A stretch of DNA of 62,133 bases from an uncultured Fibrobacter sp. Its GTDB lineage: Bacteria > Fibrobacterota > Fibrobacteria > Fibrobacterales > Fibrobacteraceae. The notes under the pieces are model-generated. The model was not told the DNA's origin. It was given only the letters and a program-made list of their open reading frames with translations, and did no database searches. The stretch covers positions 1 to 62,133 of the forward strand of contig NZ_CAMZCS010000018.1 of the NCBI RefSeq assembly GCF_947305105.1, given 5' to 3'. This document shows positions 10,147 through 21,974 of the stretch, in pieces; the stretch's first letter is position 1; each line of letters starts with the position of its first letter. The position numbers and the translations under genes are program-made.

Positions 10147-10253
10147 TCATCCATTGACCTTTCTTTTTTGTCTTAGGTGGACTGGTCTGCCACCCTGTCA
10201 TCCATTGACCTTTCTTTTTTGTCTTAGGTGGACTGGTCTGCCACCCTGTCATC
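10147..10253 (-). ncRNA. type III antitoxin RNA, two 51-nt tandem repeats
   Basis: Two identical 51-bp direct repeats (10147-10197 and 10198-10248) followed by the first 5 bases of a third unit. On the minus strand each unit starts CAGGGTGGCAGACCAGTCCA and contains GGTGG...CCACC, able to form a hairpin, then an A-rich segment. The repeats sit between a strong promoter and a terminator, immediately 5' of a TenpN/ToxN-like toxin gene. In known type III systems each repeat is released by the toxin and folds into an inhibitory pseudoknot. The antitoxin role is inferred from this layout. Confidence 0.87.
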
Positions 10254-10295: not shown

Positions 10296-11894
10296 TTAAA
10301 TTCTTGCGATTATCGCGTTCAGGCTGAGGCCGCCGTGGCTTGTGACGATGTTTTTTGCGTCGGAGTTTTGTTGTGGGTCAAGTGCGGGGCATTCGTGCAG
10401 CAGGTTCGCGGTGCATGTGTATTTAGAGCCTGGGCGTGAATCGTCTTTAGGGGCGAGGATGGCGACCGTGAGTTGCTTGCCGAGGGGCGCAAGTTCGCGG
10501 GCGAGTTCTGCAAGTTTCTTGCCGATTTGCGTATAAAGTTTTGGTGCGTCAAAGTCGAGACGCTTGCCGTAGGGCGGGTTCAGCACGATGACGGGGGCGG
10601 ATTCTCCGCAGAGGTCTGCAATTTCTTTTGCCGTGTAGCTGAAAAAGTCGCGAAGCTGTGGGCTGATTGTTGGTGCGTTAGCGCTCGGAGCGATGTTTGC
10701 GAGCGGGCAACATTCCACATTGTGCTGGATGATTTCAACTGCCCTTTCCGAAATATCGGAGGTGATGATTTTGTGAATCGTGCTGGAGATTGCCGCAGTC
10801 ACTTCGTTCCTTCGCAATGACAACATGGAATCATCGTTCCTTCGCAATGACAACATGGAATCATCGTTCCTTCGCAATGACAATATGGAATCATCATTCC
10901 CTTGCAATGACAATATGGAATCATCGATCTTTTGCAATGACAACTCGGAATCATTGTTCCTTCGCAATGACGGATTCGGGTTTGCGTTTGCCGAATTGAC
11001 AATGTGGTTCCAGGTTGCGGGTTTGAACGCTGGCTGGTGCTTGAGTGCGAAGTCTCGGCATTTGCCAGGAATGAGCCCGTGTGCCATGTAGGCCGCTTCG
11101 AGGCTGAAGGTGCCGCTGCCGGACATTGGGTCAATAAGAGTGATTAGTGGTTGGTGGTTGGTGGTTAGGATGGCGGCATTGAATGCTTCTTGGAGTATTG
11201 CGGCGGCGATGGTTTCTTTGAGCGGGGCGTCGTTCACGAAGCGTTCGTGACCGCGTTTGTAGAGTTCTTCGCCGGCGAGGTCAAGCCAGAGTGTGCATCG
11301 GTCGTCAATCAGCGTGACGTAGAGGCTTGAGGTATGAGGTGCGAGGTCGCTCGCTTCGCTTTTCGGGGCGTTGCGGGGTGTCCCCGCAGAGGGGGTAGCG
11401 GAAGACCCGACAGGGGCTGAAGCGAGGGGGAGACTTCCCCCTTCAATCACTTTCAGCAAACGTTCGGCGACGGCGTCACTGTGGTACAGGCGCGAATGTT
11501 TGCAAGTAACGTGAATAGTGGTTAGTGGTTGGTGGTTAGTGGTTAGGAAAAGTTCCCAGGGAATCTCGGCGGCTTTCTTTTCTAGCTCGCGGAAATTTTC
11601 GGCCTTGAAATCGGCGATGTGCACCAGGATGCGGTTGGCGATGCGGCTGAATGCCACGATTTTCCAAGCGTCGACGAGTTTTGCCGTAAATTCAACTTTC
11701 CCGTCACCGGCAATTTTTATGTCTAGCGAGTTTGTGCCTTGATTTTCGACACTCTCTCGTCTTAAAAAGTCCATTTCCCTGACGAATGTTTTTTCGAACC
11801 CGAGCGGGACAACGGCCAAGAAGCGGTGAGGTTTTCCTATGACCTGCCGCTTGAGCCTTTTGTCGAATGCTGAATTTTTTTCTGCGCTGTCCAC
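10296..11894 (-). CDS. RlmL-like 23S rRNA (guanine-N2) methyltransferase with in-frame repeat insertions
   Basis: A 532-residue protein: an N-terminal THUMP-like region (about 20-130), then an SAM methyltransferase domain with motif DPMSGSGTFSLEAAYMAHG near 255 and the amino-methyltransferase motif LNPPYGKR near 440. Relatives are usually about 380-400 residues. The excess is made of sequence that matches intergenic repeats: TTNHQPLTT (about 115-125), a Pro/Ser/Ala stretch ending LAPHTSS (about 150-190), TTNHQPLIT (about 242-252) and six NDDSxLSLRR-type units (about 307-365). All preserve frame, and the catalytic motifs lie outside them, so the enzyme may still work. The stop is 5 bp from the toxin-antitoxin promoter. 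Confidence 0.85.
   Translation of the reverse strand: MDSAEKNSAFDKRLKRQVIGKPHRFLAVVPLGFEKTFVREMDFLRRESVENQGTNSLDIKIAGDGKVEFTAKLVDAWKIVAFSRIANRILVHIADFKAENFRELEKKAAEIPWELFLTTNHQPLTTIHVTCKHSRLYHSDAVAERLLKVIEGGSLPLASAPVGSSATPSAGTPRNAPKSEASDLAPHTSSLYVTLIDDRCTLWLDLAGEELYKRGHERFVNDAPLKETIAAAILQEAFNAAILTTNHQPLITLIDPMSGSGTFSLEAAYMAHGLIPGKCRDFALKHQPAFKPATWNHIVNSANANPNPSLRRNNDSELSLQKIDDSILSLQGNDDSILSLRRNDDSMLSLRRNDDSMLSLRRNEVTAAISSTIHKIITSDISERAVEIIQHNVECCPLANIAPSANAPTISPQLRDFFSYTAKEIADLCGESAPVIVLNPPYGKRLDFDAPKLYTQIGKKLAELARELAPLGKQLTVAILAPKDDSRPGSKYTCTANLLHECPALDPQQNSDAKNIVTSHGGLSLNAIIARI
10801..10970 (-). repeat. 30-bp tandem repeat inside the rRNA methyltransferase gene
   Basis: About five and a half copies of a 30-bp unit, on the plus strand TTCGCAATGACAACATGGAA followed by TCATCGTTCC, with base changes accumulating from left to right. 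The TTCGCAATGACAA core is the same as in intergenic copies near 12880, 14350, 14530 and 16270. Because 30 is a multiple of 3, the array stays in frame and encodes NDDSMLSLRR-like repeats. Confidence 0.93.
11325..11445 (-). repeat. intergenic-type GC-rich repeat within the methyltransferase coding region
   Basis: This stretch joins a GAGGTATGAGGTGCGAGGTC element (also intergenic at 14280-14340 and 16140-16200) with an AGGGGGTAGCG...ACAGG...GAAGCGAGGGGG element. The second element also lies intergenically near 37060-37160. Here it is read in frame as protein. Confidence 0.8.
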
Positions 11895-11920: not shown

Positions 11921-12763
11921 CTATTCAAGGGAATCGCAACTTGCGACGTTTCCGTTGATGCGCTTTAGAACTTTGATATAAGTTCCGCGTTCAAGTTGAT
12001 AAACATATTCAAGTGAACGGATGTACGATGCGTCAATGCGGACTCCTTCTTCGAGGGAGTCACATGGAGTTTCAAGAGTTTTTGTTTTGAGATATTCATC
12101 GCAATCTAGAGGCGTGTAAATGCCATAATCAGGGACGCATGTATAGCGGAATAGTGATTTGAGGCATTCAATTTTGTTTTCTGAGAACGATGCGCTTTGT
12201 TCGTCATTGAGGAGAGAATCTATTTTTCCGGTTGCGTATTCTTCAGCGTCTGCTATAAGAGAATATTGGATAGGATTGAATTCGTGTCCGTCGGATTTTC
12301 TCTGTGTGGCACAGTAGTTTTCGGTGGAGACGCACTTTCCCATAAGTTTATTTGTGTCGGGGGGTGTCAGTGTGGACAATGCTTGGACGATGTTGATGAA
12401 ACCCGTCGAATCAATTGGTTCTTCCGAGGAACTGGATGGAATTTCATGAGAAGACGAGGAGGTTGCGCTGCTGGAAGATGCCGTTAGGCTAGAAGAAGCT
12501 GCAAGGCTAGAAGAAGCGGGATCTGCCGACGATGAATTTGCAGAAACTTCGTTTGATGACGAACTTGCAGAAACTTCGCTTGATGAGGATTCGGCGGAGA
12601 TGTTGCTTGACGATGAACTTGCTGAAATGCCGTTTGAAGATGCCGGGTCTTCGTCGGCTATGTGGATGGGAGAATTGCTAGATGTACTATCGCAACTCAT
12701 CCAGCACAAGGCCGTTGCCGAAAGGAATAAATTCCCGAAGAAGTTGTGAATTTTTTTATTCAT
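11921..12763 (-). CDS. Ser-rich lipoprotein, tandem paralog A1
   Basis: A 280-residue probable lipoprotein. The ATG at 12763 follows a GGAGA site; a TTG start 12 bases earlier is less likely. The signal sequence (KKIHNFFGNLFLSATALCWM) ends in the lipobox MSC, giving acylated Cys. A Ser/Ala linker runs from about 30 to 115, then comes a conserved domain starting FINIVQALSTLTPPDTNKLM with several Cys and ending in a helical segment RGTYIKVLKRINGNVASC. No enzyme motif is seen and the function is unknown. It is the last of five minus-strand paralogs and shares about 70 bp of nearly identical 5' DNA with the gene at 13524-14228. Confidence 0.8.
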   Translation of the reverse strand: MNKKIHNFFGNLFLSATALCWMSCDSTSSNSPIHIADEDPASSNGISASSSSSNISAESSSSEVSASSSSNEVSANSSSADPASSSLAASSSLTASSSSATSSSSHEIPSSSSEEPIDSTGFINIVQALSTLTPPDTNKLMGKCVSTENYCATQRKSDGHEFNPIQYSLIADAEEYATGKIDSLLNDEQSASFSENKIECLKSLFRYTCVPDYGIYTPLDCDEYLKTKTLETPCDSLEEGVRIDASYIRSLEYVYQLERGTYIKVLKRINGNVASCDSLE

Positions 12764-12779
12764 ATCTATCTCCAAAATA

Positions 12780-12941
12780 CGTTTTCAGGTTCGGGGCTCG
12801 AGGCGCGAGGTATGAGGTTTCTGCCCCTAGATCCTAGTCTCTAGATTCTTATCTTGGAGATTGCTTCAGGGCTATTCGCCCTTCGCAATGACAACCCCAG
12901 TTCCTACTTCCTACTCTCTCGTCTATTTTCCTAACCACTTC
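12780..12941 (-). repeat. intergenic repeat nest
   Basis: A spacer made of several repeat families in series: GGCTCGAGGCGCGAGGTATG-like, CCCTAGATCCTAGTCTCTAG-like, GATTGCTTCAGGGCTATTCG followed by CCCTTCGCAATGACAA, and TTCCTACTTCCTACT. The same units in similar order recur at 14240-14581 and 16011-16391. No gene is visible. Confidence 0.85.
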
Positions 12942-13511
12942 CTACCTTGTTTCGCACTCAGCAATTCTTTCATTGACTCTTTCGATGGCGTTTTTGAATG
13001 AACTGCGCTTGATTTCGTCTGCTTTCAGGAGGTTGTTGATGTACTGGTCGTCAACGATAACTTCATCGGGATAGGAACCGCAGGGAATGACGCCGTAGTC
13101 CAATGCGCCTGCAGAAATCAGGTATTTGGCGGACTTGTAGCAGTTCCTTATGCTATCGGAAAGGGCTGCTCCTTTGGGACTTTCCAGAAATTCTTCTATT
13201 CTGTTATCTACAACGCCTTTAGCCTCGAATTCGCCATCGTCCCCAATATAACTGGTGTATTCCGAAGGTCCTGCGGCTAAAATTCCTGCAATGCAGGCCT
13301 TGTATCCCGATACGGTTGTCCCTCTTAATCCGGTCGTATCAGGCTTTTCTAGCTTTGAAAGCTCCTTCTCGATATCGATGAATGGGCGGGGCTCGTTTGA
13401 TGCGGAAATGTCTTGTGCGGCGCTGGCGGATTCGCTGTCACAAGCGGCCCACAGAAACGCCGTAGACGAAATGAAGAGATTTCCCAAAATTTTGCATACT
13501 CTTTTGTTCAT
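12942..13511 (-). CDS. lipoprotein, tandem paralog B1
   Basis: A 189-residue probable lipoprotein with signal MNKRVCKILGNLFISSTAFL and lipobox-like WAAC. Unlike the A-type paralogs it lacks a long Ser linker. The conserved domain begins IDIEKELSKLEKPDTTGLRG and continues with TTVSGYKACIAGIL, a PKGAALSDSIRNCYKSAKYL Cys-containing helix and DDQYINNLLKADEIKRSSF. It starts 12 bp after the stop of the gene at 13524-14228, so the two are probably co-transcribed. Unknown function; no catalytic motif. Confidence 0.8.
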   Translation of the reverse strand: MNKRVCKILGNLFISSTAFLWAACDSESASAAQDISASNEPRPFIDIEKELSKLEKPDTTGLRGTTVSGYKACIAGILAAGPSEYTSYIGDDGEFEAKGVVDNRIEEFLESPKGAALSDSIRNCYKSAKYLISAGALDYGVIPCGSYPDEVIVDDQYINNLLKADEIKRSSFKNAIERVNERIAECETR

Positions 13512-13523
13512 GCCTTAAATATT

Positions 13524-14228
13524 TTACTCCCTGTCCTCGCATTTTTTTGCTTTTTCATTGATATCCTCAAAAATCCTTTGGTAGTTTCTTTTTTTCGTGT
13601 TGTAGTTGTCCTGGAGGGCTTTTAGATATTCTTCGTCGATTCGGATTTGACCTTCGGTTTCGCAAGTTTCGTCCGTGTTTTTTTCTCGATTTGGATTGGA
13701 ACACCAAGATACCCCATATACGGGGGCCATCGCTTGTTTAATTAAGTCCTTGTAACACTTTAATTTATATGAAGAAAATGTGGCGCTGTCTTTGAGAATG
13801 GAATCTCGCTTTTCCCTTGCGATTACTTCCACTTGCCATGCATCGTTAAAATAAGCGTTGTAATTTTCAATGGTTTCGCAATGTTGTTGTTCCGAAATGC
13901 ATTGCCCTCTAAGCCCGGTCGTATCTGGAGGAGTCAACTTGGATAATTCTTCGTCAATGTCGATAAAGTCTTTTGAATCTGAAATTTTGCCTATGGAACT
14001 CGAAGATGCCGCGTCGCTTGAGGATTCTGTTGAAGGCGAAGATTCGGTATCGTTTGATGAGGTTGGGTGGTCACTTGACGATAATGCTGGTAAATCGCTT
14101 GAAGAAGTTGGATTCTCGTCGGGTATGCTAACCGGGGATGTGCTGGACGAACTGTCGCAACTCATCCAGCACAAGGCCGTTGCCGAAAGGAATAGATTCC
14201 CGAAGAAGTTGTGAATCTTTTTAGTCAT
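13524..14228 (-). CDS. Ser-rich lipoprotein, tandem paralog A2
   Basis: A 234-residue probable lipoprotein with signal MTKKIHNFFGNLFLSATALC and lipobox WMSC. A Ser linker covers about 30-80. The conserved core FIDIDEELSKLTPPDTTGLR is followed by Cys-containing helices and EYLKALQDNYNTKKRNYQRI. The ATG at 14228 follows TGGAGATAAGT. The first 70 bp are almost identical to those of the 11921-12763 gene, while the mature parts have diverged. It is followed after 12 bp by paralog B1. Function unknown. Confidence 0.8.
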   Translation of the reverse strand: MTKKIHNFFGNLFLSATALCWMSCDSSSSTSPVSIPDENPTSSSDLPALSSSDHPTSSNDTESSPSTESSSDAASSSSIGKISDSKDFIDIDEELSKLTPPDTTGLRGQCISEQQHCETIENYNAYFNDAWQVEVIAREKRDSILKDSATFSSYKLKCYKDLIKQAMAPVYGVSWCSNPNREKNTDETCETEGQIRIDEEYLKALQDNYNTKKRNYQRIFEDINEKAKKCEDRE

Positions 14229-14581
14229 ACTTATCTCCAAAATACGTTTTCAGGTTCGAGGCTCGAGGCACGAGCAGTGAGCTGTGAGGTGTGAGGTATG
14301 AGGTCGCGCTACGCACTCTGAGGTATGAAATTCCTGGCACGAGCTATTCGCCCCTCGCAATGACAACCCCAGTTCCTACTTCCTACTCTCTCGTCTATTT
14401 CCCTAACCACTAACCACCAACCACTGTTTACTTTCCTCACACCTCAAAGGGAGCGTTAGCGACCGACCTCAAAGGCACGAAGTGCCGACCTCATACTTAG
14501 AGATTGCTTCAGGGCTATTCGCCCTTCGCAATGACAACCCCAGTTCCTACTTCCTACTGTCTACTTCCTACTTCCTACTTC
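14229..14581. repeat. intergenic repeat nest, no gene seen
   Basis: A 353-bp spacer filled with repeats: GAGGTGTGAGGTATGAGGTC, two copies of a CGCAATGACAACCCCAGTTC unit followed by CTACTTCC runs, CTAACCACTAACCACCAACC, and short tandem TTCCTACTTCCTAC. An upstream GGAGATAAG for paralog A2 is included at its right... edge (higher coordinates begin at 14229). No coding region or RNA gene was recognised. Confidence 0.85.
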
Positions 14582-15274
14582 CTACCTCGTTTCGCACTCA
14601 GCAATTCTTTCATTGACTCTTTCGAGGGCTTTTTTGAAATCCTTGCGCTTGATTTCGTCTGCCGCCAAGAGGTTGTTGATGTAATTGTCGTCAACGATAA
14701 CATCTTCAGATTCGGAATGGCAGGGGACGACGCCATAGTCTAATGCTGCTGCACCAATGAGGTACGTGGCGGACTTGTAGCAGTTCTTTAAACTCTGGGG
14801 AAGAGACGCTCCTTTGGGACTTTCTAGAAACGCTTCTATTCTGTCGTCTACAACCCGTGCTGCCTCGAATTCACCACTTCGAACCATATAAGCGATGTAT
14901 TCCGAATTCTCATCGGCTAGAATTCCATTAATGCAAGCCTGATATCCTGATACGGTTGTCCCTCTTAATCCAGTCGTGTCTGGCCTTTTCAGTTTTGAAA
15001 GTTCCTCTTCGATATTGAAAAATGCATTGGAAGTCCCATTAGAACTTGTTATCGATTCGCTAGAAGAAGTTGGAAAGGGCTCACTGGAAGATGTTGGAAC
15101 GGAACCATTGGAAGATGTTTGAATGGATTCACTGGATGAACTGGCTGGATTATTGCCTGCTTGGGGTATGGTAATGTCTGGTGCGCTGGCAGAGTCGCTG
15201 CCACAGGCGGTCCACAGAAGCGCCGTGGATGAAATGAACAGATTTCCAAAAATTTTACGCACTCTTTTATTCAT
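14582..15274 (-). CDS. Ser-rich lipoprotein, tandem paralog B2
   Basis: A 230-residue probable lipoprotein. The ATG at 15274 is chosen because the protein then begins MNKRVRKIFGNLFISSTALL with lipobox WTAC, matching its paralogs; an in-frame upstream extension has no such support. A Ser/Thr linker (about 30-70) leads to the domain FFNIEEELSKLKRPDTTGLR, TTVSGYQACINGIL and DDNYINNLLAADEIKRKDFK. The domain is closely similar to paralog B1, also at DNA level in the 3' part. Function unknown. Confidence 0.8.
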   Translation of the reverse strand: MNKRVRKIFGNLFISSTALLWTACGSDSASAPDITIPQAGNNPASSSSESIQTSSNGSVPTSSSEPFPTSSSESITSSNGTSNAFFNIEEELSKLKRPDTTGLRGTTVSGYQACINGILADENSEYIAYMVRSGEFEAARVVDDRIEAFLESPKGASLPQSLKNCYKSATYLIGAAALDYGVVPCHSESEDVIVDDNYINNLLAADEIKRKDFKKALERVNERIAECETR

Positions 15275-15437
15275 ACTCAAAATATAAGTTAAGGGATGCG
15301 AAAAGCGAGTAAAAAAGAGGAAAAAAATAAAATTTAGTGATGAACTGGGCCGCTGCGCAGTGTTTTGTGCAAAGACGACCAGATATATGATACGATGTAG
15401 GCGCGAGGCGCGAAGCCCCGACCTCATACCTCATTTG

Positions 15438-16010
15438 CTATTTGGGAGAATCACACCCAGCAAGTAATTCATTGGCTCTTTTGAGGCTTTCTTCGAATGC
15501 TTCGCGGCTGATTTCGTCTGCTATCATGAGGTTTTTGAAGTTCTGGTCGTCTATGGTAATTTCTTCAGAATAAGAATCGCAGAGCTTGACGTCGTCATCA
15601 AATGGGACTTGTGGAAATTGGTTCATAACGGATGTGTAACACTTATTTGAACTATCAGAAAGAAAAGCTCCCCCCTTGGGACTTTCCAAAAAATCTTTTA
15701 TTTTGGTTTCCACAATCTTCCTCGCCTCGAGTTCGCCTTTGTCTGTTATGATAAAGTTGTGTTCCAAGTCTTCATTGGCTATGATTCGTGTAATGCAAGC
15801 GTCATATCCCGTCACGGTTGTCCCCATTGTCCTTATATCGCGCCTTTTCAGATTTGAAAGTTCTTTCTTGATATCAATGGATAAATGGGGCTTGTTTGAC
15901 TCGGAATCGTCATCCGCAGTGAGGGGGGCGTCCCCGCTACAGGCTATCCATAGAAATGCCGTAGACGAAATGAATAGATATCCTAAAATTTTATGTATTC
16001 TTTTGTTCAT
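15438..16010 (-). CDS. lipoprotein, tandem paralog B3
   Basis: A 190-residue probable lipoprotein, signal MNKRIHKILGYLFISSTAFL and lipobox WIAC. There is little Ser linker. The domain starts IDIKKELSNLKRRDIRTMGT and keeps the family Cys and DDQNFKNLMIADEISREAF segment. It is the first of the five in transcription order and the most diverged B-type copy. Function unknown. Confidence 0.8.
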   Translation of the reverse strand: MNKRIHKILGYLFISSTAFLWIACSGDAPLTADDDSESNKPHLSIDIKKELSNLKRRDIRTMGTTVTGYDACITRIIANEDLEHNFIITDKGELEARKIVETKIKDFLESPKGGAFLSDSSNKCYTSVMNQFPQVPFDDDVKLCDSYSEEITIDDQNFKNLMIADEISREAFEESLKRANELLAGCDSPK

Positions 16011-16391
16011 CCTCCAAATATACGTTAAGGAATGCGAAAAGCGGGTAAAAAAGAGGAAATGGTAAAATTTCGTGATATGCTAGGCCGCTGCGCTGCATCT
16101 CGGATAAAGACGGTCGGATATATGATACGATGTAGGCTCGAGGCATGAGCTGTGAGGTGTGAGGCTCGAGGTATGAGGTCGTGCTACGCACTCTGAGGTT
16201 TGAGGTTCCAGCCCCTAGATCCTAGCCTCTAGATTCTCTGATGGAGATTGCTTCGGGGTTTTCACCCCTCGCAATGACAAGTTTTCCCTAACCACTAACC
16301 ACCAACCACTGTTTACTTTCCTCACACCTCAAAGGGAGCGTTAGCGACCGACCTCAAATGCACGAAGTGCCGACCTCACACCTCATCGTTC
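16011..16391. repeat. intergenic repeat nest, no gene seen
   Basis: This 381-bp spacer holds GAGGTGTGAGGCTCGAGGTA-type units, a CCCCTAGATCCTAGCCTCTA unit, GAGATTGCTTCGGGGTTTTC with its complementary CCCCTCGCAATGACA, and CTAACCACTAACCACCAACC. The last is followed by ACTGTTTACTTTCC, exactly as at 14400-14440. No gene recognised. Confidence 0.85.
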
Positions 16392-18245
16392 CTAGAACTG
16401 GAAATAAATGAACGGGCAGCTATCGGCACTCATGAACTGGTATATCACGAAGATGATAAACGCCGTTGCGGCGACCATTCCAGGGAGCGGGAGTGATGCG
16501 AATGCAATCCTGTAACGGCTCTTGAACTTCTTGGGAATCCAGTGGATGAGCATGCCCGCGATGAACACGAGAATGATGTTGATGTGTTCCCAGGCGATTG
16601 TCCAGAGCGAATCGTCCCATTTCCAGGCGGTGCCCATCTGCTGGACCATGTTCTTGGCCGTGTTCCAGGCGACTTCGTTCGCTTCGGCGGGGTCGAGGTT
16701 GGATCCTGCACGGAAGAAGAGACGCGTAAACGTGATGAACACGAACGTGAGCGATACGTTCCAGGCGACATAGAGCCAGTGGAAATACTTGTCGCTGAAC
16801 AGGCGGAAAAGCATGACGGCGTAGATGCCGACGAACAGCACGCCGAACCATACGGCCGAAATGGCGCAGATGGCGACGTCGTAGTTCTTGTAGATGATGG
16901 CGCTGATGGCGAAGAAGAACAGGGCCGCAGATGCTCTGAATGTGCGGCTCCTCTTGACCCAAATCTTGTTGAACACCTGGCCGAACCCGTTGAGGCCGCC
17001 CCAGATGATGAAGTTCCAGCTAGCACCATGCCACCAACCGCCCACGATTTGTGTGGCCATGGCGTTCATGTTTGTGGTGATGAACTTGCGGGATTCCGGC
17101 TTGAAATATGCGTAAATTGAAATATAGAGGAATAGCGCGATGAGGGCAGCGGCGACCCACACACTGCCTGAAAGCAGGACGGCGACAAGGCTTAAGAAAC
17201 CCATCCAGAAGAACGTGCCGACGGAAGCCCCGCGGTTGCCGCCCAGAGGGATGTAGAGGTAGTCGCGCCACCAACTCGAAAGGGAAATATGCCAGCGACG
17301 CCAGAATTCGGTGGGGCTGAGCGCCTTGTAGGGGCTGTTGAAGTTCTGTGGCAGGCGAAATCCCATGAGAAGCGCCACGCCGATGGCGATGTCGGTATAG
17401 CCCGAGAAGTCGGCATAAACCTGCAGCGAGTAGGCAAAGAGCGCGATGAGGTTCTCGAGGCCGGTAAACAGGAGTGGCGTATCGAAAACGCGGTCCACGA
17501 AGTTCGTGGCGAGGTAGTCGCTCAAAATGATTTTCTTCGCGAGGCCGTTCAGAATCCAGAACACGGCGATGCCGAATGTGCGACGGGGGAGGAAAAACGG
17601 TTTGTAGAGCTGCGGGACGAACTTGTCGGCACGCACAATCGGGCCTGCGACCAGCTGCGGGAAGAACGACAGGTAGAAACCGAAGTTCAGGATGTTGTCT
17701 ACGGCCTTGATTTTACCGCGGTAGATGTCGATGCAGTAGCTCATCGCCTGGAACGTGAAGAACGAGATGCCCACCGGGAGGATAATCGTGTCGACGAGCG
17801 AATTTGTGCCGAACATCTTGTTGCTTGCGGCAGCGAAGAAGTTGTAAACGTGCAACTCGATTCCGGTAAAGTCGTAAAGCGCATCCAGGAAGAAGTAAGA
17901 ATACTTGTAGTAGCAGAGCACCAGCAGGTCGATGATGACGACAATAATCATCAGGAATTTCTTTTTCCAGTGTTCTTCGGCTTTTTCGATCCATTTGCCG
18001 ATAAAGAAATTCGCGATGACACAGAAAATCAAGATGCAAACGTAACTTCCGCTCGTCTTGTAGTAGAAGAAAAGGCTAGTGAAAAAGAGGAACGCGTTAC
18101 GGAGGAGGAGCTTGTTGTGTACGAGGGTAAGTATTGCAAATACGACAGCAAAGAAACCCCAAAAATAGAACTGCGTAAAGAGCAGCGGCGAGTTCGGGTC
18201 GAACGCGAATGTGTGACTTAAAAATGGGATTAAATGGTCTAACAT
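16392..18245 (-). CDS. MBOAT family O-acyltransferase (AlgI/DltB-like)
   Basis: A 617-residue integral membrane protein with at least ten hydrophobic helices. The family core is clear: FFPQLVAGPIVRADKFVPQL, QVYADFSGYTDIAIGVALLM, SPTEFWRRWHISLSSWWRDY with LYIPLGGNR, and GGWWHGASWNFIIWGGLNG with the catalytic His near residue 405. MBOAT proteins of this branch pass acetyl or other acyl groups across the inner membrane to extracytoplasmic glycans or teichoic acids. The gene follows two SGNH protein genes on the same strand (20 bp gap), the usual partners for the periplasmic transfer step. The acyl acceptor is unknown. Confidence 0.93.
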   Translation of the reverse strand: MLDHLIPFLSHTFAFDPNSPLLFTQFYFWGFFAVVFAILTLVHNKLLLRNAFLFFTSLFFYYKTSGSYVCILIFCVIANFFIGKWIEKAEEHWKKKFLMIIVVIIDLLVLCYYKYSYFFLDALYDFTGIELHVYNFFAAASNKMFGTNSLVDTIILPVGISFFTFQAMSYCIDIYRGKIKAVDNILNFGFYLSFFPQLVAGPIVRADKFVPQLYKPFFLPRRTFGIAVFWILNGLAKKIILSDYLATNFVDRVFDTPLLFTGLENLIALFAYSLQVYADFSGYTDIAIGVALLMGFRLPQNFNSPYKALSPTEFWRRWHISLSSWWRDYLYIPLGGNRGASVGTFFWMGFLSLVAVLLSGSVWVAAALIALFLYISIYAYFKPESRKFITTNMNAMATQIVGGWWHGASWNFIIWGGLNGFGQVFNKIWVKRSRTFRASAALFFFAISAIIYKNYDVAICAISAVWFGVLFVGIYAVMLFRLFSDKYFHWLYVAWNVSLTFVFITFTRLFFRAGSNLDPAEANEVAWNTAKNMVQQMGTAWKWDDSLWTIAWEHINIILVFIAGMLIHWIPKKFKSRYRIAFASLPLPGMVAATAFIIFVIYQFMSADSCPFIYFQF

Positions 18246-19881: not shown

Positions 19882-21974
19882 CTCTTTTCCCTTCTTGTAG
19901 CCGGCGTTGTCGGCTGCTTTTTAGACAAGTTTGTGTTGCTCCCCTGCTTTTGCCCGTTTACGGGCCTTCTTTTTTTCCTTACCTTTCGCTTCTGTTGGTC
20001 GGCCGGCGTAGTCTGCTGAATTTGTTTCCGCTTCTTTATCTGCGGATTTTCTGTGTCGTTGACTTTGCGCCTTGTCTTTTTCTTGGCCGTTGTCTGTTCT
20101 GTTGTTTTCTTTGTCGTGACCGGCTTGCGTGCAGGCTGTTCGGCAACGGGCTTGCGTGTCGGTTCGGCAACAGGCTTGCGCACCGGTTCTGTAATCGGCT
20201 TGCGGGCGGGCTGCTCTGCGACAGGCTTACGTGTCGGTTCTGCGATCGGTTTGCGAACAGGTTGTTCTGCGACCGGTTTGCGTGTCGGTTCGGCAATCGG
20301 CTTGCGCGTCGGCTGTTCGGCGACGACGGGTTTACGCACGGGCTCCGTGATCGGTTTGGGCGCCGGTGCCGCAATAGGCTTCTTTGTGGTTTCTTCCACC
20401 ACAGGCTTCTTCGCCTCTGCGGTGCTTATAGAGTCGTTGAAGGAACGCAGTGCGAGTAACTTCTTGTCCGAGATGTTGTGCCTGCCCCTGAATTTGAAAA
20501 AGTCGTAGTACATGCGCAGCGAAGAACTGAACAGGTCGCCCATGTGCGTTGCGCCACGGCGGGTAAAGTGGATATGGTCCGTGAATCCCAGCGGGGGTTC
20601 GCGCTTGACCCATTTCGACATGGTTCCGTTACCGCCCATGACGCGGTGCATGTCCCAATAGGCGACTCCATTTTCGAGGGCGACTTCGCGGAGGGCTGCG
20701 ATGGTCATGCGGAGAGCGGGGTAGGTCTTCCAGCGTCCGTCGGATTGCCTTTCCATGTCGGCGGGGCCGATGAATATGATGTCTGCATCCGGGTTGGCCT
20801 TCTGGATGGCGAGAATCTGGCGCGTGACGAGCTTCTTTATATAGTCTATGTTGGATGTAGAAATGCTCGGGACCATGTTTCCACCGTATTCCATCATGAT
20901 AAGCTTCGCGTTCATTGCCTTGTACGATTCTGCAAGCAGTTCCGGGTCAATTCTGTGGAAAATCGTTCCCGAGGAACCGCGCATGGCCACGTTGTCGACG
21001 GCCACGCCGTAGGCTCCGTCTGCGGAAACGGCGTAAATTTCGGTATTTCCCGTGAGCGTAATCTTTACAGACGACGTTGTATCGGGGAGTTTCCACGTAT
21101 ATACGTTAAGTTTTGTGTAAGAAGAATCTACGAGAGGCGGTTCGGCTTCGACCATCTTGACCGAAGTCTTGATTTTTTCCGTGCTGTCCGGGTTTAGGCC
21201 CACGACAGTCGTGAAGGTGCGGTCGTAATCCAACCTCGCTTTTAGCTTTCCGCGCTTGCCTGCAAGGACCTTGATAGTGGCGTAGCCGCCGGCGTGCGGA
21301 TAAACTTTTGTCCTGTCTTTGCGGTCCAGACGGCGCTTGATGCCGATAACTGCGGTTCCGTTCAAGTTGGCGAACTGAGCCAGCGGTCCATAGCGGCTAT
21401 GAGTGGCTTCTTCGTCTTTGGGGCCAAAGAGAATGTAGCGCTCTAGGGCACCCCGGCTCCAGTGGACGGTCGTTTGCGGCTGGATTTTGAGGACGGGCGG
21501 GAGCATGCCTGGCCCGGCACCGCCGAATTCCTCCTGGAGGTCTTCGCGGATAGTCGACGAAATGCGGTCTTCTTCCAACTGGGAGTCCCCGTAATGCACG
21601 ATGTGTACAACGGAACTGTCTATCGACGCCAACTGGAGGTGCAGGAAGAACCTGTCGAACCACGTGGGGTCGTTGTTAGGGAGGTCGAACCTTGTTTTGC
21701 CGCTATCGAAAAAGTCCTGGTAAAAGCGCAAGGAATCGGCAAAGGCGGCGAACTGCTTCTGCCGGGTAGCTTCCATCATAGCTCTGATCTCGTCTTCCGG
21801 GTCGTTTTTCCCGTTTGCCGTGGTGTCGGCGACAGGGAAAACATCGGTCAGGGACGGAAAACGGAGTGTGAGTGATTCACTGATGTGTATGCCGTCGGAC
21901 GGGAAAATAATGGCCATCAATCCAAGAACAAGGAACAGGCTTATGATGGTAATTAACGCTTTTTTCGGGGTCAT
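19878..21974 (-). CDS. SGNH/GDSL-type protein 2 with basic repetitive tail
   Basis: A 698-residue protein anchored by an N-terminal helix (ALITIISLFLVLGLMAIIF). The SGNH blocks are HIVHYGDSQLEEDR (Ser131), the EYGGN region, IIFIGPADMER and FTDHIHFTRRG (Asp/His near 468). From about residue 530 the tail is low complexity: repeats of RKPVAEQPxRKPIAEPT followed by a very Lys/Arg-rich end. The tail could bind an anionic glycan or peptidoglycan. It overlaps the first SGNH gene by 4 bp and follows hisS by 3 bp, so all four genes may be one transcript. Confidence 0.87.
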   Translation of the reverse strand: MTPKKALITIISLFLVLGLMAIIFPSDGIHISESLTLRFPSLTDVFPVADTTANGKNDPEDEIRAMMEATRQKQFAAFADSLRFYQDFFDSGKTRFDLPNNDPTWFDRFFLHLQLASIDSSVVHIVHYGDSQLEEDRISSTIREDLQEEFGGAGPGMLPPVLKIQPQTTVHWSRGALERYILFGPKDEEATHSRYGPLAQFANLNGTAVIGIKRRLDRKDRTKVYPHAGGYATIKVLAGKRGKLKARLDYDRTFTTVVGLNPDSTEKIKTSVKMVEAEPPLVDSSYTKLNVYTWKLPDTTSSVKITLTGNTEIYAVSADGAYGVAVDNVAMRGSSGTIFHRIDPELLAESYKAMNAKLIMMEYGGNMVPSISTSNIDYIKKLVTRQILAIQKANPDADIIFIGPADMERQSDGRWKTYPALRMTIAALREVALENGVAYWDMHRVMGGNGTMSKWVKREPPLGFTDHIHFTRRGATHMGDLFSSSLRMYYDFFKFRGRHNISDKKLLALRSFNDSISTAEAKKPVVEETTKKPIAAPAPKPITEPVRKPVVAEQPTRKPIAEPTRKPVAEQPVRKPIAEPTRKPVAEQPARKPITEPVRKPVAEPTRKPVAEQPARKPVTTKKTTEQTTAKKKTRRKVNDTENPQIKKRKQIQQTTPADQQKRKVRKKRRPVNGQKQGSNTNLSKKQPTTPATRREKR
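20130..20345 (-). repeat. tandem coding repeat of the SGNH protein 2 tail
   Basis: About eight imperfect units encoding RKPxAEQP / RKPxxEP, on the plus strand GGCTTGCGTGTCGGTTCGGC and variants. The units stay in frame and explain the Pro/Lys/Arg-rich tail. Confidence 0.85.

Follow-up and report, generated by a model that had tools for sequence, protein, structure and literature searches.

The presence of dispersed, largely non-coding repeats inside open reading frames is already known for Rickettsia palindromic elements (RPEs) and CGTC-tagged REPs (PMC10969869, PMC2229807, PMC3733652) and for short heptamers (PMC4679880). RPEs (Ogata et al. 2000, 2002) are described as dispersed palindromic repeats of several families that lie in frame within conserved housekeeping genes (PMC10969869, PMC2229807), and for a repeat-bearing Gmk both translation and activity have been demonstrated (PMC2229807). 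CGTC-tagged REPs form a superfamily that includes RPE-4 and RPE-6 of R. conorii and dRS3 of Neisseria, has no dedicated transposase and has some members inside ORFs; in Xanthomonas recB, different REPs are found at about the same site (PMC3733652). The text of PMC3733652 makes no mention of Fibrobacter. The TAACTGA heptamers of Beggiatoaceae form short tandem arrays that are mostly intergenic, with some copies in ORFs, mostly at protein ends, where their tolerance is decided by frame and stop codons (PMC4679880).

The locus considered here belongs to a stretch of 62,133 nucleotides from an uncultured Fibrobacter sp. (the window), which is contig 18 of a 3.57-Mb genome that is 99.97% complete. 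One of its genes, encoding an RlmL-type rRNA methyltransferase, contains repeats of several families in four hypervariable loops. The explanation that we consider highly probable is that non-coding repeats have repeatedly been copied or expanded, in frame and at the DNA level, into tolerant loops of working enzymes; the process is genus-wide, and RlmL is a strong example of it. The features concerned are as follows.

10296..11894, minus strand: rlmL-type 23S rRNA (guanine-N2) methyltransferase gene, 532 aa, GTG start, zero internal stops
11512..11547, minus strand: loop A, ACTAACC heptamer array translated as TTNHQPLTT, in the connector from helix 101-109 to strand 124-132
11364..11444, minus strand: loop B part 1, palindromic GC-rich element translated as EGGSLPLASAPVGSSATPSAGTPRNAP, pLDDT below 50
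11326..11350, minus strand: loop B part 2, TGAGGTATGAGGT-type repeat read as DLAPHTS, adjoining the GC-rich element
11139..11169, minus strand: loop C, second ACTAACC heptamer array, translated as ILTTNHQPLIT and directly preceding the strand that leads to DPMAGSGT
10791..10982, minus strand: loop D, about six 30-bp units (SLRRNDDSML...) from the GTCATTGCGA palindrome unit, pLDDT below 50 (residues 305-368)

The first-pass annotation had placed this ORF in the right frame and at the right coordinates and had correctly recognized an rRNA methyltransferase, as is evident from the Pfam match of the 532-aa protein to UPF0020 (E 8.8e-19), the match to the RlmL ferredoxin-like domain being weak. The product combines an N-terminal ferredoxin-like/THUMP part with a Rossmann methyltransferase; because the RlmK half is absent, it is filed as RlmL-type only, and its score against the RlmLK equivalog is 137 bits, with the cut-off at 466. 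Its place in the UPF0020/RlmL type is supported by Pfam, by the fold match and by conservation of the SAM-binding and N2-guanine catalytic motifs. The AlphaFold model (pLDDT 76.8, pTM 0.78) is closest in fold to SMU.472, a C. difficile methylase and the RlmL half of E. coli YcbY/RlmLK, and the exact target is presumably the position equivalent to 23S G2445. As had been noted from the sequence, the repeats preserve the reading frame and leave the catalytic motifs untouched: none of the inserts falls within a conserved block, and both DPMAGSGT and NPPYGKR are unbroken in the window protein and conserved among orthologues. Just downstream of rlmL (window 10147-10253) a 51-bp sequence that includes the inverted repeat GGTGGACTGGTCTGCCACC is perfectly duplicated in tandem (2.1 copies), as might result from duplication of a terminator or from recent slippage.

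Each of the loops has counterparts elsewhere in the genome. The two TTNHQPLTT sites listed at first pass are both ACTAACC arrays that match DNA outside rlmL, loop A being identical over 36 nt to intergenic position C1:44494 and loop C over 25 nt to C6:17722. Genome-wide, the two-unit ACTAACC pattern has 124 occurrences, compared with one for the reversed-pattern control, and in a 462-kb sample it is found at ten intergenic or gene-edge places and only twice within called genes, both times in the window rlmL. The TGAGGTATGAGGT-type repeat, which was missing from the first-pass list, is intergenic or at gene edges in seven places of the same sample and genic in one, again the window rlmL. The GC-rich element proved to be a dispersed repeat, as proposed, with 10 more matches in this genome, but its description as purely intergenic fails genome-wide, since at least two copies lie in frame in genes (FeoB and CoaBC). 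Similarly, the supposed six-copy 30-bp array is real (5.6 copies at 10804-10971), but only in rlmL does it take the form of an array, whereas elsewhere in the genome the matches of 25-28 nt correspond to the dispersed GTCATTGCGA palindrome core. The array thus arose locally by expansion of a single REP-like unit, and loop D ends in a REP-like hairpin, GTCATTGCGAAGG..GGCAATC. The number of 30-bp units is six in L001 and four in both L002 and L003, and the array has therefore expanded or contracted in frame recently. The central first-pass claim that several repeat families share one gene accordingly stands, with heptamer arrays, the GC-rich element, the TGAGGTATGAGGT-type repeat and the GTCATTGCGA-derived array all present. 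Further along the window, positions 12600-16400 hold duplicated genes, some lipoprotein-like, as 82% repeats at 1.64-kb spacing, with spacers packed with heptamer and GTCATTGCGA-like repeats.

A search for relatives gave matches in 33 of 36 same-genus genomes, and the comparison set comprised 32 genus coding sequences (the window gene included) and two outgroups from the same order; the named relatives are Fibrobacter, mostly ruminant MAGs. The outgroup proteins measure 383-391 aa and those of the genus 414-615 aa. The ortholog alignment recommended at first pass consists of a 372-codon core and loops, A-D being the four main hypervariable ones, that differ widely in length and content, so that the inserts are variable and their flanks conserved. 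The inserts do not represent conserved domain sequence, as the corresponding loops of the outgroups comprise 2-13 aa without any insert, and in some genus members, such as L018 and L078, they are likewise down to a few residues. All 32 genus ORFs are intact, with no internal stop; a TAA that had seemed to lie inside the rlmL copy of G006 sits just upstream of its start codon. The dN/dS ratio is 0.11-0.20 in the core (16 pairs) versus 0.46-0.82 in aligned loop codons (7 pairs), which indicates a functional gene with relaxed loops. Beyond GKHLQNECGDGNRFKDGIHIA, the C-terminus of the RlmL of L020/L081 (G026:C4) is aberrant, which may reflect a frameshift or an assembly error.

In Rossmann methyltransferases, the SAM-binding and catalytic loops lie on the strand-to-helix side. 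Repeat sites, counted by eye on the DSSP line of the model and comprising A-D together with N and E (repeat-bearing in some species), occupy 6 of 10 helix-to-strand connectors versus 0 of 9 strand-to-helix connectors (p=0.011), and the inserts therefore avoid the SAM-binding and catalytic side. With a pLDDT of about 85-97 in most core blocks and below 50 in loops B and D, the longest repeat-bearing loops are predicted to be disordered.

Across the genus, a recognized repeat is found at one or more sites in 30 of the 32 sequences, with different repeats filling the same loops. Site A holds other repeats or a short loop in orthologues, and the loop C array is absent in L003 and L005. At site D, repeats of other families than in the window gene are present in L004 and most other species: RETRDERRE or close forms derived from the GAGACGA heptamer occur in L004, L005 and L015, HPERS..AESKDL in L030 and L077, VTLSETKGPVKS in L010, L013 and L023, and NSEFGVQNSE in L012 and L016. 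This site also shows two readings of the GTCATTGCGA family, namely SLRRN (L001-L003) and VIASEAKQS (L022 and L029). At site B of L077 (the rlmL of G011), four tandem REP units are read as VTLEEGTTDRVLDDCRKLSTKGY, and the loop reaches 104 aa. Matches to at least two intergenic pieces, scored against 78 kb of intergenic sequence sampled solely from the window's genome, were obtained for 43 of 176 loop segments and for 28 of 880 core segments of the same length (Fisher p 3e-18, an overstated value given that orthologues are related), a difference that rules out chance. Palindromes of the form GTCA-stem...stem, many ending in CCA or CTA, are present in 30 of the 176 loop segments compared with 0.9 in shuffles; a strict stem-of-7 palindrome scan of the genome sample failed to distinguish coding from intergenic sequence. 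Most segments of sites E and N match no repeat, and as the pattern matches at site N (e.g., RREN in L002/L004) are spurious, only A-D were counted. Changes of repeat family were counted by parsimony on a tree derived from the core columns alone, with families assigned by peptide patterns so that the counts are approximate; the minimum is 16 for site A, 12 for B, 7 for C and 18 for D, or at least 53 in total. Site D of L004 is of the L005 type, flanking residues included, although the tree places L004 nearer L001 and L002, which suggests homologous exchange besides new insertion.

In-frame repeats are also found in CoaBC, FeoB, a TonB-type outer membrane protein, a family-4 glycosyltransferase, an RluA-type pseudouridine synthase, TilS, MnmE, RsmB, PriA and a PHP-domain-like protein, all with confirmed family assignments save the last, which was named from sequence alone. 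Among the 340 called genes of the 462-kb sample, about ten carry such repeats, RlmL being among those with the most families; in CoaBC, the repeat position is the linker between the two domains in many species. The GC-rich element lies in frame in CoaBC, FeoB, PriA, TilS, RsmB and others besides RlmL, and it is read in the +0 frame in RlmL, CoaBC and FeoB, in +1 in PriA and from the reverse strand in TilS and RsmB; therefore, no single peptide has been selected, and peptide-level selection for one reading is unsupported. The element may have a mild coding preference, as it is in the +0 frame in most of the gene families found, partly since two of the searches used that peptide. In the RsmB loop preceding DRILLDVPCS, the window's genome has VPHTSKGAEGDRPH and G017 the reversed GC-rich element. 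The presence of ACTAACC and of GAGACGA in RlmL goes with a higher genomic load of the respective heptamer (p=0.0035 and p=0.0033, values that ignore phylogeny). Taken with the varied frames and orientations, this dependence on genomic load places the source of the inserts in DNA and not in a selected peptide. Two further arrays were observed, namely eight GTCATTGCGAGCGAA units at a spacing of exactly 45 bp (G024:C4:3285-3614) and a degenerate 24/51/75-bp repeat array (GGCTTGCGTGTCGG...) in an apparently coding region of the window (20118-20324).

A mechanism can be proposed in which 7-bp tandem arrays, CGTC-type REP palindromes and the GC-rich palindrome would be copied or expanded into protein genes as DNA, most of these events presumably being lost. 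Surviving inserts would be those that keep the frame, are free of stops and fall in surface connectors tolerating extra or replaced residues, where the repeat would be translated as a mostly disordered loop while RlmL stays active. The loops would then turn over through unit slippage, as in the 30-bp array, replacement with another repeat and homologous exchange between lineages. Copying would probably proceed by ectopic recombination or template switching, combined with slippage, and not through a dedicated transposase. A match to Y1_Tnp, the signature of Y1/RAYT transposases, is present in 12 of 41 genus genomes and absent in that of the window (G000), for which mobilization by a resident RAYT/IS200 transposase was accordingly rejected. 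By analogy with the active RPE-bearing Gmk (PMC2229807), RlmL is probably made at full length and active. The inserts are likely to be near neutral. It is conceivable, though doubtful, that an active, sequence-relaxed copying process keeps exchanging repeats among the permissive loops of housekeeping proteins, direct copying from gene to gene included. Among the 41 genomes searched, exact copies of the VTLSETKGPV element (GTCACCCTGAGTGAAACGAAGGGTC) turned up only at RlmL loop D (L010, L013 and L023) and in the CoaBC linker (L117 and L119), a confinement unlike that expected for a generally intergenic repeat; its sequence distribution suggests gene-to-gene copying.

The same confinement, together with the recurrence of the GC-rich element with a similar peptide in several proteins and the near-universal occupancy of RlmL by some recognized repeat, could be taken to mean that the repeats were recruited as useful linkers or interaction loops and that selection keeps some insert at each site. 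We regard this as unlikely, as identity, length, frame and orientation all vary, down to the few-residue loops of L018 and L078, the loop dN/dS is relaxed, and the outgroups manage without inserts. Fast-evolving disordered linkers that resemble repeats through low complexity only would explain why most of sites E and N match nothing, but are very improbable as a general account in view of the 36-nt exact intergenic match, the excess of REP palindromes over shuffles (30 vs 0.9), the correlation with genomic load and the reading of one DNA repeat in several frames.

There is also scarcely any room for a decaying relic gene gathering junk, the other possibility raised at first pass: the altered, possibly frameshifted C-terminus of the G026 copy would fit such decay, but purifying selection on the core, the lack of stops in 32 coding sequences and the conserved catalytic motifs refute it. 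Misassembly or chimaeras at repeats, a natural suspicion where many genomes are metagenome-assembled, would almost certainly not yield a pattern that recurs in tens of genomes from different studies, some with 10-20 contigs and 99-100% complete, with the frame always kept. Repeated in-frame copying and expansion of non-coding repeats into tolerant loops therefore remains the preferred explanation.

Translated repeats of a selfish or slippage-prone nature in housekeeping enzymes are thus not peculiar to degenerate intracellular bacteria: the process is still going on in a genus that is abundant in the rumen and whose genomes measure 2-5 Mb. The tens of species with differently filled loops constitute a natural insertion scan of the tolerance of a methyltransferase and offer a chance to catch how transposase-less REPs and heptamer arrays get copied. 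Annotation, orthologue clustering and structure prediction in Fibrobacter are all affected. If an active copying process were indeed at work, non-coding repeats would form a genus-wide supply of new protein loops.

The likeness to RPEs drawn at first pass is apt, as the Fibrobacter repeats, too, are shared between non-coding DNA and conserved genes, where they lie in frame, and many loop inserts of the genus fit the CGTC-tagged REP design to which R. conorii RPE-4 and RPE-6 have been assigned (PMC3733652). The window inserts do not belong to the RPE family, being short or arranged as tandem arrays, including non-palindromic heptamers; RPEs measure about 105-150 bp, whereas most Fibrobacter inserts span 20-100 nt. 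Among the loop segments of the genus, the GTCA palindromes described above (30 of 176) follow the layout [C/T]GTC-A-stem-loop-stem-CCA/CTA, which in the window RlmL is seen in loop D only, with an imperfect 5-bp stem; several Fibrobacter inserts differ from it in having longer, interrupted stems with a 5-bp outer stem. The absence of a dedicated RAYT from CGTC-tagged REPs is matched by the absence of Y1_Tnp from G000. With the cyanobacterial STRR and the TAACTGA repeats of Beggiatoaceae, Fibrobacter shares, as a resemblance only, 7-bp tandem units in many dispersed, mainly intergenic copies, but its units are ACTAACC, GAGACGA, ATCAATC and others, and its coding copies lie in internal loops and not, as in Beggiatoaceae, at protein ends. 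A literature search that mostly covered papers outside subscription found none on Fibrobacter repeats or on unrelated families re-invading the same loops throughout a genus. What is new relative to RPEs and the other known systems is therefore the genus, the mixture of repeats, with heptamer arrays and the GC-rich element added, and the repeated re-invasion of the same loops by different families across the genus.
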